A stretch of DNA of 64,000 nt from contig NZ_AOIQ01000006.1 in the NCBI RefSeq assembly GCF_000337515.1, forward strand, positions 440,265 to 504,264, written 5' to 3'. The notes beneath the pieces were generated by a model, which had not been told where the DNA came from, did not search any database, and worked only from the letters and a program-made list of their open reading frames with translations. The stretch's first letter is position 1. Every line of letters starts with the position of its first letter. The position numbers and the translations under genes are program-made. This DNA is from Halovivax asiaticus JCM 14624 (GTDB lineage: Archaea; Halobacteriota; Halobacteria; Halobacteriales; Natrialbaceae). This document shows positions 1,475 through 9,973 of this stretch, piece after piece.

Positions 1475-3436
1475 ATGGTGCTAGACCAGGCCAAATCAGC
1501 GACGGACGTTGACCGACGATCGGTTCTGAAGACTATTGGTGCAGGTGGTGGAATCGCTCTCGCCGGCTGTCTCAACGGTGGAGATGACGAGGGCGGCGAC
1601 TTCCCGATGAAAATTACGCTCGAAGTGAACGCGGACAACGACGACCGCCTTGAGATGGTCGAGCTCATCGCAGCCTCCCTCGAAAAAACGGACTACTTCG
1701 AGGCTAAGGTAAAGACGTACGAGTGGACGACGTACGTGAGTCGTGTCATGGGCTCCGAATACCCGAACAAGGGTGTCGTCCCGTGTATCGGACTGGCCGG
1801 GACGTTCAACCCCGGCAGCTTCTGTAACGCCCTCCACCACACGGACAACATCGGACAATGTTGTAACCTGACCGGCGTGGGCAACGAGGAACTGGACAGT
1901 ATGATCGAAGACGCTCGATACGGAATCGAGGTCTCCCAGGACAACGAACTCCGCGGCAAGCGCTACGACGAAGTCTGGAACGAACTCGCCGACAACAAAT
2001 TCAGTTCGATTACGCACTTCGACGTGCAGAGCGTCATTACGACGAACGAGGTCCACAACTTCGTTTCATACCCGTTCCAGCAGTCACTGATTAGTCACGC
2101 GCTTTACTCAGCCGCCGACGAACAGGTTGCGTGGATCGACCGCGATAACGCCGCGTCGCCGGACAGTCGGTCGTCGCTGTCCGATCTGAAAGAAGGTGGT
2201 GAACTGAGCGTCGGTCTCGGCGCCAACCCGTCGTCGTTCGACCCGCCGTACAGCACGGACACGACCTCGAGTATCGCCCAGTCATACATCTTCGAATACC
2301 TGACTACCTCGGACTCCCAAGGGAACGTCTACCCGTGGCTCGCCGAGGATTACACCATCGAGGACGTTCAGGATATCGATCTAATGGCGTACGAGCCGTA
2401 TATGACCGAGGTCCAGACCACGGAAGAGGACGGACTCGACACGGACGCGCAGGTCATCGTTCAACACCCGGAGGACAGCCCCGCCGATCAGGACACGGTC
2501 CGCGTCCTCACGCCAACGGAAGCCGCCGATGCGGTCGCCGACGGCACCTACGGGATGCACTTCCGGTACGAACTCGAAGAGGGCGTTTCGTTCCACAACG
2601 GCGAGGAAATGACGGCGGAAGACGTAATCGCCTCGCTCAAGCGCGTCGAAAATTCCCAGATATCCGCCCAGACGTTCGACTCGGTGCTGCACGCTGAAGC
2701 TGTCGACGACTACACCGTCGACTTCTACGCACAGATCCCGGACGCGGAAGCAGAGCGCCTCCTCACGAGTACGACGGCGATCATGCCGAAGGAGGTCGCC
2801 GAGGCGGGTAACGGCGAAGTCGACCCACGTAACAGCGTCGATCCGGTCGGCACGGGCCCATACGAGTTCGGCGAAATCGACGACGGGAACTACTTCACTG
2901 TCGAGTCGTTCGACAGCTACTGGATGCACGACAAGGGGATTCAGAACAAGCCCTGGTTCGACGGTCCCTCGGAGTTCCCGAACGGCCCAGTGGTCGACAC
3001 CGTCTACAACGAAGTCGTTCAAGACACCAGTACCCGGCAGGGATCACTTCAGGCCAACGAGCTAGACGTTACGTACGGGCTCAACGCATCGACCCTCGAT
3101 AGCTTCGTCGAGAGTGAGGACTTCATCGTCGACAGCGTCTCCGCCGGCGGATACGAGTACATCCAGTACCCACCCGCCGTCGAACCGTTCGACGATCCTC
3201 GATTCCGCAAGGCGATCAACTACCTCATTCCCCGACAAATGATCGTCGACAACATCCTCAACGGCTGGGGAGAACCGGCGTGGACGTCCCTCCCCGAGCT
3301 CGCACGCGGTGCCGGAACGGCGGACTACGAAGCGCTCGAATCTAAAGTCAGACCAACGAACGAACACAAGCCGGAAGAAGCTGTGTCGCTCCTCGAAGAA
3401 GTCATCGAGGACAAAGGCTACTCCTCGAACGTCTAG
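1475..3436 (+). CDS. Peptide ABC transporter substrate-binding lipoprotein (SBP_bac_5), apparently circularly permuted
   Basis: 653 aa family-5 extracellular solute-binding protein with a Tat signal and lipobox (RR at 14-15, LAGC with Cys32). It would bind a peptide-like ligand outside the membrane and deliver it to the downstream permeases. The order of its parts is unusual. Residues about 44-213 read like the C-terminal part of the family (MKITLEVNADNDDRLEMVE, TYEWTTYVSRV, a FNPGSF block, GVGNEELDSMI, then RYDEVWNELAD). Residues about 237-653 read like the N-terminal part (GGELSVGLGANPSSFDP, GVSFHNGEEMTAEDVIASLK, DPVGTGPYEF, PFDDPRFRKAINYLIPRQMI). The protein ends at KPEEAVSLLEE, where a normal member would continue into the 'early' segment. 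There are four extra cysteines (104, 117, 129, 130). First gene of a five-gene operon. Family call firm; permutation is inferred from motif order. Confidence 0.88.
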   Translation: MVLDQAKSATDVDRRSVLKTIGAGGGIALAGCLNGGDDEGGDFPMKITLEVNADNDDRLEMVELIAASLEKTDYFEAKVKTYEWTTYVSRVMGSEYPNKGVVPCIGLAGTFNPGSFCNALHHTDNIGQCCNLTGVGNEELDSMIEDARYGIEVSQDNELRGKRYDEVWNELADNKFSSITHFDVQSVITTNEVHNFVSYPFQQSLISHALYSAADEQVAWIDRDNAASPDSRSSLSDLKEGGELSVGLGANPSSFDPPYSTDTTSSIAQSYIFEYLTTSDSQGNVYPWLAEDYTIEDVQDIDLMAYEPYMTEVQTTEEDGLDTDAQVIVQHPEDSPADQDTVRVLTPTEAADAVADGTYGMHFRYELEEGVSFHNGEEMTAEDVIASLKRVENSQISAQTFDSVLHAEAVDDYTVDFYAQIPDAEAERLLTSTTAIMPKEVAEAGNGEVDPRNSVDPVGTGPYEFGEIDDGNYFTVESFDSYWMHDKGIQNKPWFDGPSEFPNGPVVDTVYNEVVQDTSTRQGSLQANELDVTYGLNASTLDSFVESEDFIVDSVSAGGYEYIQYPPAVEPFDDPRFRKAINYLIPRQMIVDNILNGWGEPAWTSLPELARGAGTADYEALESKVRPTNEHKPEEAVSLLEEVIEDKGYSSNV

Positions 3437-3502: not shown

Positions 3503-4459
3503 ATGAGCCTCAGACGGTTTATCGTAAAGAGACTTCTTGCAATCATCCCAATTCTGTTCGGGGTGTCGATAATCACGTTCGGGCTGGTCCACCTTACACC
3601 AGGTGATCCAGTACAGCAGATCCTCGCTCTCAACCCGAGGGCTGGACCGACTGAAAAGCAGCAGTTACGGGAGCAATTCGGTCTCGCCGCACCGATCTGG
3701 GAACAGTATCTGAACTGGATGAAGGGCGTCTTCACCGGCGACTTCGGCGAGGTGTATCGCTCGCGCCGTGCCGTGTCCGAAGTCATCTACTCGCGCCTGC
3801 CCGAAACGCTCCTCCTCGGCCTCTTCGGCTGGGTGTTCGGGCTTGTCATCGCGATTCCGACCGGGATCTACGCCGCCGTACACAAGGACCAGCTCGGCGA
3901 CACCGTGAGCCGATTCGTGGCGCTCTCCGGGATCTCCATCCCGAACTTCTGGCTCGGTCTGATGCTCATCCTCATTGGCTCACTCACCCTCGGCTGGTGG
4001 CCGGTCACGGCACCCAAGCGGGCGCCGCTACTCTCGTTCGATATGCTATGGTACCTGATACTGCCGGGACTGACCATCGGTACTGCAGCAGCATCGTCAA
4101 TCATGCGCGTAATGCGGACGTCCATGGCCGAAGAAATGAACAAGGAGTACGTGACCGCCGCGAGAGCAAAGGGGCTCCCCGAACGGACGGTCGTCCTCAA
4201 ACACGTACTCCGAAACTCGCTCATTTCCGTAGTGACGCTGGCAGCAACGCTCACCGCGAGTATCGTCGCGGGATCCGTCATCATCGAGCAAGTGTTCGCG
4301 TGGCCAGGACTCGGACAAACGTTCATCCAGGCCATCAGAAACGCCGAATACAACCTCATCATGGCGATCACTCTCTTTACGGGCGTGTTCATCATCCTCG
4401 CTAATCTGGTAGCAGACATCCTGTACGCAGCACTCGACCCGAGGATTCGATATGACTGA
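3503..4459 (+). CDS. dppB: Peptide ABC transporter permease (DppB)
   Basis: 318 aa permease of the DppB/OppB family. It has an N-terminal TM followed by the family motif VHLTPGDPVQQIL (about residues 28-40), then an extracytoplasmic loop, five more TM segments, and the EAA coupling loop (about 213-235, EYVTAARAKGLPERTVVLKHVLRNSL). The C-terminus is ADILYAALDPRIRYD. It follows the binding-protein gene by 66 bases and overlaps the next permease by 8 bases, so the two permeases are translationally linked. It forms the membrane channel with the DppC at 4452. Confidence 0.95.
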   Translation: MSLRRFIVKRLLAIIPILFGVSIITFGLVHLTPGDPVQQILALNPRAGPTEKQQLREQFGLAAPIWEQYLNWMKGVFTGDFGEVYRSRRAVSEVIYSRLPETLLLGLFGWVFGLVIAIPTGIYAAVHKDQLGDTVSRFVALSGISIPNFWLGLMLILIGSLTLGWWPVTAPKRAPLLSFDMLWYLILPGLTIGTAAASSIMRVMRTSMAEEMNKEYVTAARAKGLPERTVVLKHVLRNSLISVVTLAATLTASIVAGSVIIEQVFAWPGLGQTFIQAIRNAEYNLIMAITLFTGVFIILANLVADILYAALDPRIRYD

Positions 4460-5507
4460 TAAAAACGTACTCTCCGGACGCGGTCGCATAGAAATCACCG
4501 GGTTCAACCCGGAACGAGTGGAACAGCGAGACAGCCTCTCCGGCTGGTCAGAGGAGGCCGGCCGAGCCACACAGAGTCGATGGTCACGGGCGTGGCAGCG
4601 GTTCAAACGCAACCGGAGCGCGCTGCTTGGCGTGGTCGTCGTGGCGCTCCTCGCCTTCCTCGCCATCTTCGCACGGCCGATCGAAGTCTTCGGCCTCACC
4701 GTACAGCCGTTTTCGCTCGCGCCGCATCCGCCGGGGGAACTCCTGTACTTCAACCACCCCGGCGAGGGATTCACCGGCGACTACCAGCCCCCGAGCATGA
4801 AGGCGCCGATGGGCGTGGACGGTGACGGACGCGACATCTTCTCGCGCCTCCTCTACGGCGGTCGCTACAGTCTCTCCATCGGATTTATCGTCGTCGGGCT
4901 AACCGCCGGCATCGGGCTCCTCTACGGCGCCGTCTCGGGATACTACGGCGGCTGGGTCGACGAGATCATGATGCGGATCGTCGACGTCATCTACGCCTTC
5001 CCCGGGCTCATCTTGTCGCTGATCATCGTCTCCATGCTCGGTCGGGGCTACACGCAACTCATCATCGCCTTCTCCCTGTTCGGCTGGGCTGGGTACGGGC
5101 GACTCGTCCGCGGGGAGGTGCTAAAGGTCAAAGAGAACGAGTACGTGATGGCAGCCAAGGCACTCGGCGCACGCGACAGAAGCGTCGTGCTCAGGCACAT
5201 CGCCCCCAACACGATGGCACCCTTACTGGTAGTCGCCTCACTACGAATCGGGACCGTCGTCATCGGCGTTGCCGCGCTCGGGTTCCTCGGACTCGGCATG
5301 CCCCCAGGAAGCGCAGAGTGGGGGACGATGCTCGATGGGGCCCGCAACTCGCTGATCCGTCTCGATACCGGCCCCAAGTGGTGGGCGACCGTCTTCCCGG
5401 GAACAGCAATCTTCCTGTTCGTGATGTCGATGAACATGATCGGTGACGGGATCAACGACGCCCTCGACGCCCAGCAGACCGGCGTCGGCAAGGGAGGTGA
5501 CGAATAA
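4452..5507 (+). CDS. dppC: Peptide ABC transporter permease (DppC)
   Basis: 351 aa permease of the DppC/OppC family. A cytoplasmic N-terminus of about 55 residues leads into the OppC_N-type segment (WSRAWQRFKRNRSALLG) and first TM. A loop with GVDGDGRDIFSRLLYGGRYS precedes the core BPD_transp_1 domain. The EAA loop is near residues 228-250 (NEYVMAAKALGARDRSVVLRHIAPN). It starts inside the end of dppB (8-base overlap), and its last base is shared with the ATG of the next gene. The linker between the first TM and the GRDIFSR motif is longer than in bacterial DppC. Confidence 0.95.
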   Translation: MTDKNVLSGRGRIEITGFNPERVEQRDSLSGWSEEAGRATQSRWSRAWQRFKRNRSALLGVVVVALLAFLAIFARPIEVFGLTVQPFSLAPHPPGELLYFNHPGEGFTGDYQPPSMKAPMGVDGDGRDIFSRLLYGGRYSLSIGFIVVGLTAGIGLLYGAVSGYYGGWVDEIMMRIVDVIYAFPGLILSLIIVSMLGRGYTQLIIAFSLFGWAGYGRLVRGEVLKVKENEYVMAAKALGARDRSVVLRHIAPNTMAPLLVVASLRIGTVVIGVAALGFLGLGMPPGSAEWGTMLDGARNSLIRLDTGPKWWATVFPGTAIFLFVMSMNMIGDGINDALDAQQTGVGKGGDE

Positions 5508-6586
5508 TGGCCCTGCTCGAAGTCGAAGATCTGACGGTCAACTTCTACACGCAGGATGGTACCGTCAACGCGGTCGACAATCTTACGTACTCCATCGAAC
5601 GCGGAGAGAAGTTCGGCGTGGTCGGCGAAAGCGGGGCCGGAAAGAGTGTAACCGCGCTCTCGCTCATGCGACTCATCGACAGTCCCGGCCACATCGAAAG
5701 CGGGGAGATCCGCTTCAAGGGCCAGGATATCCTATCGATGTCCGAAGACGAGGTTCGATCGATCCGGGGCAACGAGATCGCAATGATCTTCCAGGACGCC
5801 CAAACGGCACTCAACCCGGTGTACAGCGTCGGCGAGCAGATCGCCGAGGCGATGCGACACCACCTCGACTACAGCAAATCCGAGGCCAAAGAAGAGACGA
5901 TCGACCTCCTCGCGAAAGTCGGGATTCCGGAGGCCAGAAAGCGCTACAGTGATTACCCGCACGAATTCTCTGGAGGGATGCAACAGCGTGCCATCATCGC
6001 GATGGCCCTATCCTGTGATCCGGATCTACTGATCTGCGACGAGCCCACGACGGCGCTCGACGTGACGATCGAAGCGAAGATCTTAGAGGAAATCGAGTCC
6101 CTCGCAGAGGAGTTCGACACGGCGATTCAGCTCATCACGCACGACCTGGGAGTCATCGCAGAGATTTGCGACCGTGTCATGGTAATGTACGGGGGCAAAC
6201 CGGTCGAGAAGGCGCCTGTCGAAGAATTGTTCTACGATCCGAAACACCCCTACACGGTCGGCCTGATGAGTTCGATTCCGCGGATCGGCGACTCAACGGA
6301 CCGACTCCAGACGATTCCGGGCAAAATGCCCGACCTCGTCGAACTCCCGCCGGGGTGTAGCTTCCACCCGCGCTGTCCGTACGCCGAAGAGGCCTGTACG
6401 CTCAGCGAGCCCGAACTACTCGACACCAAGACAGGTAAGCCCGCCTCGGAGGTGGGTACCAACCACTCAGCTGCCTGTCTGGCATACTCCGGTGACCTGA
6501 CCGGCGAGCTCGACTACTCGGTTACGGTAAACGAGGATTCGAAATCGAACGCGCCCGCCAGCCAAATTACAGGTGACAACCAATGA
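5507..6586 (+). CDS. dppD: Peptide ABC transporter ATP-binding protein (DppD)
   Basis: 359 aa cytoplasmic ATPase of the Dpp/Opp type. Walker A is GESGAGKS (40-47), the signature is FSGGMQQR, Walker B is LLICDEP, and the H-loop is ITHDLGV. The C-terminal oligo_HPY region has the cysteine pattern [15 protein letters not shown] plus a later Cys in HSAACLAY, which in this family can hold an iron-sulphur cluster. A strong Shine-Dalgarno (ggaggtga) lies just before the ATG although the gene directly abuts dppC. It pairs with the ATPase at 6583. Confidence 0.95.
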
Positions 6587-7902
6587 GCGAACCCATCCTC
6601 GAAGCGCGCGGACTCAAGAAGTACTACGACACGGCCAGCGGGTTCATGGACAGTATGCTCGGTCGGTCGAACAAGGTCAAAGCCGTCGACGATATCGATC
6701 TCGAACTCCACGAGGGCGAAACGCTCGGCGTCGTCGGCGAGAGTGGGTGCGGAAAGACGACACTCGGTCGGACGATGCTGCGGCTCATCGAACCGACGGA
6801 AGGGTCGGTGTACTACAAGGGCCAGGATCTGACAGAACTGTCCTCGAGTGAACTCCGAGATGTCCGGACGGACATCCAGTACATCTTCCAGGATCCGTTC
6901 TCGAGCCTGAATCCGCGGATGACCGTCGGCGACATCATCGGCGAGCCGCTCGACATCCACGGCATCGCCGAAGGGCAAGAGCGAGACGAACGGATCTACG
7001 AACTCCTCGAAACCGTCGGCCTGAACCCGAGCCACAGTCACCGGTATCCTCACGAGTTCTCCGGTGGACAGCGCCAGCGTATCGGCATCGCCAGAGCCCT
7101 CGCTGTTGATCCGGAGGTCATCATCTGTGACGAGCCAGTCAGCGCACTGGACGTCAGCGTGCAGGCCCAGATTCTCAATCTGTTAGAAGATCTCCAGGAG
7201 GATTTCGGCCTCTCGTATATCTTCATCGCGCACGACCTGAGCGTCGTCGAGCATATCTCGGACCGCATCGCCGTGATGTACCTCGGCAAGATAGCCGAGA
7301 CCGGCACAACCGACGAGGTGTTCGAACCGCCGTACCATCCGTACGCCGAAGCCCTGCTCTCAGCGATTCCAGAACCGGATCCGCTGTGGGACGGCGAACA
7401 GATATACCTCTCAGGGTCGGTTCCATCACCAATCGATCCGCCAACCGGCTGTCGGTTCCACACCCGCTGTCCGCGGGTGATCCAGCCGGAAGAGTACAAC
7501 ATGCCACAGAAAGAGTGGCGACAGTTGATGGACTTCAAACAGCGCCTGCTTACGAGCGACAGCCTCAAGTCAATCGCACAGGTGACGGACGAAACCGTCG
7601 ACCTCGACTCGATCACGCGGGACACCCTTGACGAGCTCATCAGGCGGGAGTTCGATCTCCCAATGCAGCTTTCGGATATGCAGGCGGAACAGGTCATCTC
7701 GCAGGCCGTCGACCGACTGACGGAGGAGAACTTCGAGGATGCCCGAGCGCTCGTCGCAGACGGGTTCAAGTCGCCCTGCGAACAGGTCGATCCCGAGTTA
7801 CAGTCGACCGGCACAACCCACCGAATCGCCTGTCACCTCTACGACGATGATCCGAAACAGCCGGGTGCCACAAATACGAGCGACGCGGTAGCAGACGACT
7901 AA
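6583..7902 (+). CDS. dppF: Peptide ABC transporter ATP-binding protein (DppF) with an inserted segment in the HPY region
   Basis: 439 aa second ATPase of the transporter. Walker A is GESGCGKT (52-59), signature FSGGQRQR (159-166), Walker B VIICDEP (179-185), H-loop IAHDLSV. It overlaps dppD by 4 bases (ATGA) and has an aggtga ribosome-binding site. It is about 100 residues longer than bacterial DppF. The oligo_HPY region is split: Cys290 and Cys296 (GCRFHTRCP) are separated from Cys399 and Cys417 ([13 protein letters not shown]) by about 95 acidic, probably helical residues (about 300-396). The four-cysteine set is kept, so the cluster may still form. Last gene of the operon. Confidence 0.93.
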
Positions 7903-7950: not shown

Positions 7951-8496
7951 ATGCGTCGTATCTATGAGTCGAACGCGCTCGAGCGGGAAACGGGCCCGTT
8001 CACACCTAACGAGCGCTCCGACAGTGACAAAGGGCCAAGCGTTCCCGATGATGACGATGCTGGCTTCCTCGGAACGCTCATCCCAAATTCCATCAGTACG
8101 CGTGCCATTGCGATCGACATTTCGACGCCAAAGGAGGTCTATACCGTTGGCGAACCCATCCATTTCAGTGTCGAGGTGTACAATCGGATGCCGTTCGGCG
8201 TCTCCATCCAGACGCCGACACCGTTACTGTGGAAATGGGAGGTGGACGACTACCCAAACGCCGCACACGCCGATCTCGACGATCCGCCCGCAGACACGAG
8301 TCAACACACCTTCTCGGGCGATGGACGGAAGCGGTTCGACAAACGCTGGCTACAGCGCTTCCAACGCTCGAAGTCCGAGTGGGAACGAGCCGAGCCGGGG
8401 ACCTACACGCTTCGAGCACGAGTGAACGTCCCAGGGTCAGAACGCGCTTACCACTCGAGCGAAACGGACGTCGAAATCGTCGAAGAGAACAACTGA
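7951..8496 (+). CDS. Uncharacterised protein with an Ig-like beta domain
   Basis: 181 aa with no signal peptide or TM segment. Residues 1-50 are polar and probably disordered. From about residue 52 the pattern IAIDISTPKEVYTVGEPIHFSVEV looks like an immunoglobulin-like beta sandwich of the kind in BsuPI/intracellular proteinase-inhibitor-like domains, with a matching C-terminal strand GTYTLRARVNVPG. I do not recognise a function. It follows the dpp operon by 48 bases on the same strand, and converges with the gene ending at 8520. Confidence 0.7.
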   Translation: MRRIYESNALERETGPFTPNERSDSDKGPSVPDDDDAGFLGTLIPNSISTRAIAIDISTPKEVYTVGEPIHFSVEVYNRMPFGVSIQTPTPLLWKWEVDDYPNAAHADLDDPPADTSQHTFSGDGRKRFDKRWLQRFQRSKSEWERAEPGTYTLRARVNVPGSERAYHSSETDVEIVEENN

Positions 8497-9404: not shown

Positions 9405-9552
9405 CGAATCCCCGTAAGCACGCGGACGTAAAATATGACGTGGTTTCCCAATTGCTATCTGGTCACACAGGTGTGGCAAGAGAGACCTGACGACAGAGAA
9501 CGTGAACCTCGTACGACCGTTGCTGCTCACGAAATCGCTCTCACAACGAAGC

Positions 9553-9670
9553 AGCGGGGGTAGATTTGAACTACCCCCGAGAACCTGCTCGCTTCGCTCG
9601 CAGAACCTCGATGTCGTTCAAACTACCACGTCTGAATCGGGCTGCTCGCGAATTGCTCGTAGTCAAGACG
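9553..9670 (-). repeat. Degenerate unit of the tRNA-3'-end tandem repeat
   Basis: It begins with agcgggggtagatttgaac, a slightly altered copy of the last ~20 bases of the tRNA-iMet gene (read on the opposite strand). It ends with a diverged version of the ctcgcgaatttg... tail of the two intact units. This is the most decayed of three units. Confidence 0.6.
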
Positions 9671-9784
9671 TAGCGGGAGGTAGATTTGAACCACGGTCGT
9701 TTCGCTCACTTCGTTCGCTACACTCCCTGATTCAAATCTACTCGTCGAAAGAGTGTCGCTCGCGAATTTGCCCGCGACAAAACA
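9671..9784 (-). repeat. 114-bp tandem unit beginning with a tRNA-iMet 3'-end copy
   Basis: It starts tagcgggaggtagatttgaa, identical to the 3' end of the tRNA at 9899-9973. An exact 11-base inverted repeat follows (gtagatttgaa at 9680-9690, ttcaaatctac at 9731-9741), and a further imperfect hairpin (cgctcacttcgttcgct) lies in the loop. It differs from the next unit at only about three bases. Confidence 0.85.
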
Positions 9785-9898
9785 TAGCGGGAGGTAGATT
9801 TGAACCATGGTCGTTTCGCGCACTTCGTTCGCTACACTCCCTGATTCAAATCTACTCGTCGAAAGAGTGTCGCTCGCGAATTTGCTCGCGACAAAACA
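9785..9898 (-). repeat. Second 114-bp tandem unit beginning with a tRNA-iMet 3'-end copy
   Basis: Same architecture as the unit before it: tRNA 3' end, inner hairpin, exact 11-base inverted repeat, then gctcgcgaatttgctcgcgac. It directly abuts the discriminator base of the real tRNA. Any transcript reading through the tRNA terminus would therefore carry these structures. Confidence 0.85.
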
Positions 9899-9973
9899 TA
9901 GCGGGAGGTAGATTTGAACTACCGATCTGCGGGTTATGAGCCCGCCGGAATCTCCTGGCTATCCCATCCCGCT
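9899..9973 (-). tRNA. Initiator tRNA-Met (CAU)
   Basis: Read on the minus strand, the acceptor arm AGCGGGA pairs perfectly with UCCCGCU, and the discriminator is A. The anticodon arm is GCGGG-CUCAUAA-CCCGC, so the anticodon is CAU. The T arm is GGUAG-UUCAAAU-CUACC. The A1:U72 pair and the three consecutive G:C pairs at the base of the anticodon stem are marks of an initiator rather than an elongator Met or Ile2 tRNA. No intron, and CCA is not encoded. The 3' end is duplicated downstream (9553-9898). Confidence 0.95.

Follow-up and report, generated by a model that had tools for sequence, protein, structure and literature searches.

A circularly permuted SBP_bac_5 lipoprotein of haloarchaeal Dpp-type operons, and evidence that its chain order has probably switched repeatedly

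The first gene of a Dpp-type operon in Halovivax asiaticus JCM 14624 raises the question of whether a substrate-binding protein (SBP) can carry the parts of its chain in exchanged order and still serve its transporter and, if so, how often the order has changed. Natural circular permutations are mostly seen as ancient changes that happened once and set distant homologues apart, a view that makes their origin and importance hard to test. For the locus studied here, a stretch of 64,000 nucleotides (the window, in whose numbering coordinates are given), we put at about 0.85 the probability that the gene is real and working and that it encodes, in circularly permuted form, the cluster-C (SBP_bac_5) lipoprotein with which a Dpp/Opp-type ABC importer binds its substrate. 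The further proposal, that this one operon has seen repeated switching, with a permutation, at least one natural reversion (in genome G142) and a second permutation elsewhere (in G074), is in our judgment somewhat better supported than not. The gene and its parts, with A and B denoting the N-terminal and middle segments of a normal chain and C its C-terminal part, are as follows.

1475..3436, plus strand: permuted SBP_bac_5 substrate-binding lipoprotein, 653 amino acids, module order signal-C-A-B
1475..1570, plus strand: signal peptide, with the RR pair at residues 14-15 and the lipobox LAGC ending in Cys32
1571..1600, plus strand: short acidic, Gly-containing tether linker from Cys32 to the C-module, residues 33-42 (pLDDT below 50 over residues 1-40)
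1601..2140, plus strand: C-module, residues 43-222, equivalent to the stretch with which a normal SBP_bac_5 chain ends (from alignment with Pfam, PDB entries and orthologues)
2141..2194, plus strand: linker between what were once the C- and N-termini, residues ~223-240 (from homologue spacing to the GG motif and low pLDDT over 207-237)
2195..3424, plus strand: N-terminal and middle part (A-B), residues 241-650, with the new C-terminus KGYSSNV-stop (Pfam, PDB and orthologue alignments)
2426..2491, plus strand: loop, residues ~318-339, intact here and equivalent by alignment to the cut of the second permutant, on L183

The whole protein scores 176.8 bits against PF00496 (gathering score 32.4), and because Pfam thus treats it as an ordinary SBP_bac_5 protein, its order is overlooked by annotation tools. 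The original prediction was that the modules of the chain are swapped and that the N-terminal piece and the rest would match late and early parts of the family profile respectively, and alignments to Pfam, PDB and orthologous sequences bear this out: profile positions 284-339 align with residues 38-96 (E=0.0046, weak taken alone) and positions 16-276 with residues 360-643 (E=9e-52). With so modest a Pfam score for the N-terminal piece, it is on the orthologues that the case for permutation rests. Against AppA (1xoc), chain residues 9-310 match 229-604 of the query and 357-488 match 40-182, and the same swapped picture emerges when a profile built from 31 permuted homologues is aligned with AppA, a second family member and GbpA. 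The blocks swap fully relative to co-linear haloarchaeal orthologues, at ~50-57% identity per block, and both segments are homologous to one and the same co-linear orthologue in exchanged order, as expected of a circular permutation. The canonical co-linear order of SBP_bac_5 chains is thus absent, and the window protein is a permuted variant of SBP_bac_5 (cluster C) and not a canonical member. The earlier coordinates proved correct to ~10 residues: the chain does end at KGYSSNV-stop, and the C-module and linker, which had been placed at 44-213 and 214-236, both exist with their limits shifted to 43-222 and ~223-240.

The Pfam TAT_signal model gives the window protein only 11.6 bits, below its cut-off. 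R14, R15, G31 and C32 are nevertheless invariant, except at G22-type positions, in the 31 permuted and 27 co-linear proteins aligned, and since the twin arginine and the lipobox cysteine are kept in both forms alike, both orders should be Tat-exported and lipid-anchored. The predicted new linker, and the predicted shift of the membrane tether to the C-lobe, find support in sequence, synteny and this RR/Cys conservation. Three further cysteines, at residues 117 (SFC) and 129 and 130 (the vicinal pair of QCC), show little or no variation among the 31 aligned permuted homologues, and the QCCN pair is also invariant among the aligned co-linear proteins; they are perhaps disulfides or a feature of the ligand site.

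An AlphaFold model of the window protein made with the 31 permuted sequences has a pTM of 0.75, its low-confidence parts being chiefly the tether (1-40), the linker (207-237, below 50) and some loops, while a co-linear control, the G142 protein, reaches 0.81. In Foldseek the control aligns with AppA at a TMt of 0.81 over 620 columns and the permuted model at 0.43 over 481 columns, a chain-order alignment to which the poorer model also contributes; so low a sequential score is what a permutation predicts, and a poor model alone would fit it too. Among the Foldseek matches listed, the permuted model pairs with SBP_bac_5-type proteins, aligned sequentially in part.

A search of haloarchaeal relatives for both orders recovered 84 distinct family ORFs, 38 of them C-A-B as in the window, 43 A-B-C, two co-linear without a detectable A-segment (45 co-linear in total) and one B-C-A. 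The permuted form is spread over 11 genera in three haloarchaeal families, as judged by group codes; the plasmid collection yielded one match, co-linear, in Halocatena salina, and no permuted form. The window genome is a 24-contig draft, which might point to an assembly artefact or a decaying gene. What refutes an artefact is that 37 more homologues, drawn from many independent assemblies, show this order, one of them lying in a single-contig genome of the same genus at 83% identity; end-to-end matches in the same order were found at 50-83% identity, among 100 relatives and then among 392 genomes of the class. Reading frames are intact, and the comparison with the congener (dN ~0.10, dS ~0.59, dN/dS ~0.17) shows that the gene is under purifying selection, so that we give artefact and decay practically no credence. 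The presence of several SBP_bac_5 paralogues in the window genome could likewise point to a fused gene whose C- and N-modules descend from separate paralogues, not one permuted gene, but trees of the AB-half and of the C-half concur on the key placements and both halves group with orthologues of the same operon, which makes a fusion very improbable. The permutation thus stands, while the route originally proposed for it, a tandem duplication whose outer halves were then lost, has the standing of a conjecture: a search around ~60 loci turned up neither tandem nor partial intermediates, and the route, though plausible, would also require removal of an internal signal peptide.

The genes that follow the permuted gene are those of a complete importer.

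3503..4459, plus strand: DppB-like permease, kept 3' of the SBP gene in permuted and co-linear operons
4452..5507, plus strand: DppC-like permease (operon comparison)
5507..6586, plus strand: DppD-like ATPase (operon comparison)
6583..7902, plus strand: DppF-like ATPase (operon comparison)
7951..8496, plus strand: conserved 181-amino-acid ORF of the same cluster, found after dppF in most operons compared

The locus thus has two permeases and two ATPases, "Dpp" being a family-level label only. Wherever enough of the operon is present to tell, the SBP gene lies before dppBC, usually dppBCDF, and almost all long loci run SBP, dppB, dppC, dppD, dppF and a ~180-residue ORF whichever the chain order. 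In G038, G056 and G299 (L179, L180 and L182) dppB and dppC come after the permuted SBP gene but ATPase genes do not, and a complete, convergent co-linear operon lies ~10 kb away; the two systems may share ATPases. Matches to dppD in L179, L180, L181, L182, L155, L164 and L167 are split by ~240-310 bp near query residues 63-82, which suggests that in some operons the ATPase contains an insertion. Just 5' of the permuted gene the window has a lone DppB-like permease (187-1128), and farther upstream, on the opposite strand (L174, 6230-11125), stand dppC-, dppD- and dppF-like genes of another system; the same upstream arrangement occurs in G344 and G386, where the SBP is co-linear. Beyond the operon, at 9544-9973, there are three degenerate tandem copies, spaced by ~114 nt, of a segment overlapping the tRNA-Met annotated on the minus strand at 9899-9973, which adjoins them; the copies create a repetitive spurious ORF at 9502-9939 and look like repeated attachment-site scars of integrating elements.

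From its signal, the permuted SBP would be exported by Tat and lipidated on Cys32. We expect it to form the usual two-lobed flytrap, with the old N- and C-termini close together and bridged by the linker of ~15-18 residues, and to hand its substrate to the DppBCDF-type translocator encoded 3'. The lipid anchor would then attach to the middle of the C-lobe, instead of the N-terminus of the N-lobe as in the co-linear form. Similar permeases serve either order in sister operons, which suggests that the orders are near-equivalent and that a change between them is probably near-neutral. Alternatively, the permutation may have been adaptive, the C-lobe anchor and a shorter tether repositioning the flytrap on the translocator or nearer the membrane. 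The linker from Cys to fold is indeed shorter in the permuted form (median 14, range 6-35, against 32, range 26-45, in the co-linear form), yet the test (p=5e-12) ignores shared ancestry, and each order has its own definition of where the fold begins. The scoop motif of DppB in the Escherichia coli DppABCDF system touches both lobes of DppA (PMC12136057), so that geometry or the side of the anchor could matter, and a tethering rationale has been proposed by Brautigam et al. for the permuted TpMglB-2 (PMC4990184). With sister operons of similar permeases using either order, we regard the adaptive explanation as rather unlikely.

How the orders are related is best seen in one pair of genomes. 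In trees built from a de-permuted alignment, the co-linear SBP of G142 is sister to the permuted SBP of G128 (support 100/99 and 73% identity for the full protein; 96/92 and 97/92 on each half alone), and the permeases beside them are sisters as well (support 99), at 87% identity. At the DNA level the signal, C and A-B blocks of the two genes all align, and their order alone differs. Such lability of order in matching haloarchaeal gene clusters, with a third order found elsewhere, offers a rare chance to watch a protein being rewired, probably once back to normal. The permuted rows do not form one clade, and a single permuted clade is rejected by the AU test (p=0.000265), while permuted rows plus G142 as one clade are not (p=0.166). 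With G142 and G128 sisters and all modules and permeases orthologous, chain order has therefore changed at least twice at the cut of the window protein and once at another.

Shared details of the permuted chains speak to the direction of these changes. Permuted homologues hardly vary in the spacing between their C-module and the GG motif (15-18 residues), a linker of the P-x-x-T/S type is found in 15 of the 38, and a GY tail stands at the new C-terminus in eight, G128 included, against one of the 43 co-linear forms with GY near the equivalent position. Because linker length, linker motif and GY tail are shared in this way, we favour one permutation followed by one reversion, in G142, over repeated permutation; the direction of change in G142 is thereby probable, the shared linker and GY features being short, and the native residues before GG in co-linear forms resemble part of the permuted linker. 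If instead the G142 order is ancestral, there was no reversion, and the G128 lineage and at least one other were permuted independently at the same site, the loop and the adjacent old termini being perhaps the easiest place to cut. The B-C junction of G142, GDIDFPI, is not unlike ancestral junctions; permuted operons are scattered over several clades of a permease tree whose deep branches are weak; and the family, to judge from G074, tolerates such events. Against this stand the linker and tail features shared among the permuted forms and a clade joining them with G142, which the AU test does not reject, and we hold repeated permutation to be possible but less likely. The chain history that we prefer would accordingly begin with an ancestral permutation to C-A-B, with a probable later return to the normal order and, independently, a permutation to B-C-A.

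Three other candidates were set aside. The junction at L184 is too similar to other junctions to serve as a clear scar of reversion, and an eight-row co-linear clade nested in the tree is not required to be a second reversion by the AU test (p=0.166). Gene conversion of G142 from a co-linear paralogue leaves no visible donor tract: when it is compared in segments of 60 residues, seven of ten match its permuted sister L120 best, and in the other three, where L120 ranks 5, 20 and 2, another permuted protein outscores the best co-linear one.

The third order is that of a protein of 634 amino acids in G074, encoded at L183:2906-4810 on the minus strand and found also on L033, with a Tat lipobox signal of its own; it is known from a single metagenome-assembled genome, 76% complete. 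Against the co-linear sister L039, its residues 7-33 correspond to 6-32, 75-545 to 168-643 and 552-634 to 57-142. The cut thus falls within the acidic loop that separates segment A from segment B, the old ends are bridged by only a few residues, and this permutation is independent of the C-A-B one; no further relatives of the G074 permutant were found in its family or in a phylum-wide sample. The original prediction did not bring out the age and wide spread of the permutation, the difference in order between sister operons, or the existence of a second permutation with another cut.

Both modules of the window protein are homologous to AppA (1xoc), DppA (1dpp) and GbpA/HbpA (3m8u), lipoproteins likewise adjoining DppBCDF-type genes, although cluster C chains run A-B-C, whereas the window protein runs C-A-B and has a C-lobe anchor and an extra acidic A/B segment. 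The S-G-D-N-G-D-P stretch of GbpA, which we take to be the region that in DppA holds the ligand-binding Asp436, aligns to S-G-T-F-N-P in the window protein, so a dipeptide ligand is not implied. The co-linear haloarchaeal orthologues (Haloarcula, Halocatena, G142, G005) share its operon, modules and Tat lipobox signal, and differ in their A-B-C order and longer N-terminal tether. The open-licence PMC literature yielded no natural SBP_bac_5 permutant and no report of order switching between sister orthologues or within an orthologous operon; if the reversion is true, we know of no earlier example in nature of a circular permutation being undone between sister orthologues. More than one permuted order within a domain family also occurs in the cpRAS circularly permuted GTPases, whose fold is unrelated (PMC2430557). 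The one natural precedent found among binding proteins is TpMglB-2 (Tp0684) of Treponema pallidum, a circularly permuted, tethered lipoprotein of an ABC importer that is, like the window protein, conserved in relatives (PMC4990184). TpMglB-2 is a Type I/cluster B sugar binder ("Type Ic / Cluster Bc"), unrelated in family and cut (PMC4990184), whereas the window protein's sequence matches in Pfam and PDB, like its listed Foldseek matches, are of SBP_bac_5 type. In sequence, the permuted part of TpMglB-2 resembles the usual form poorly, while the modules of the window protein are clearly orthologous to those of co-linear sisters in the same operon.
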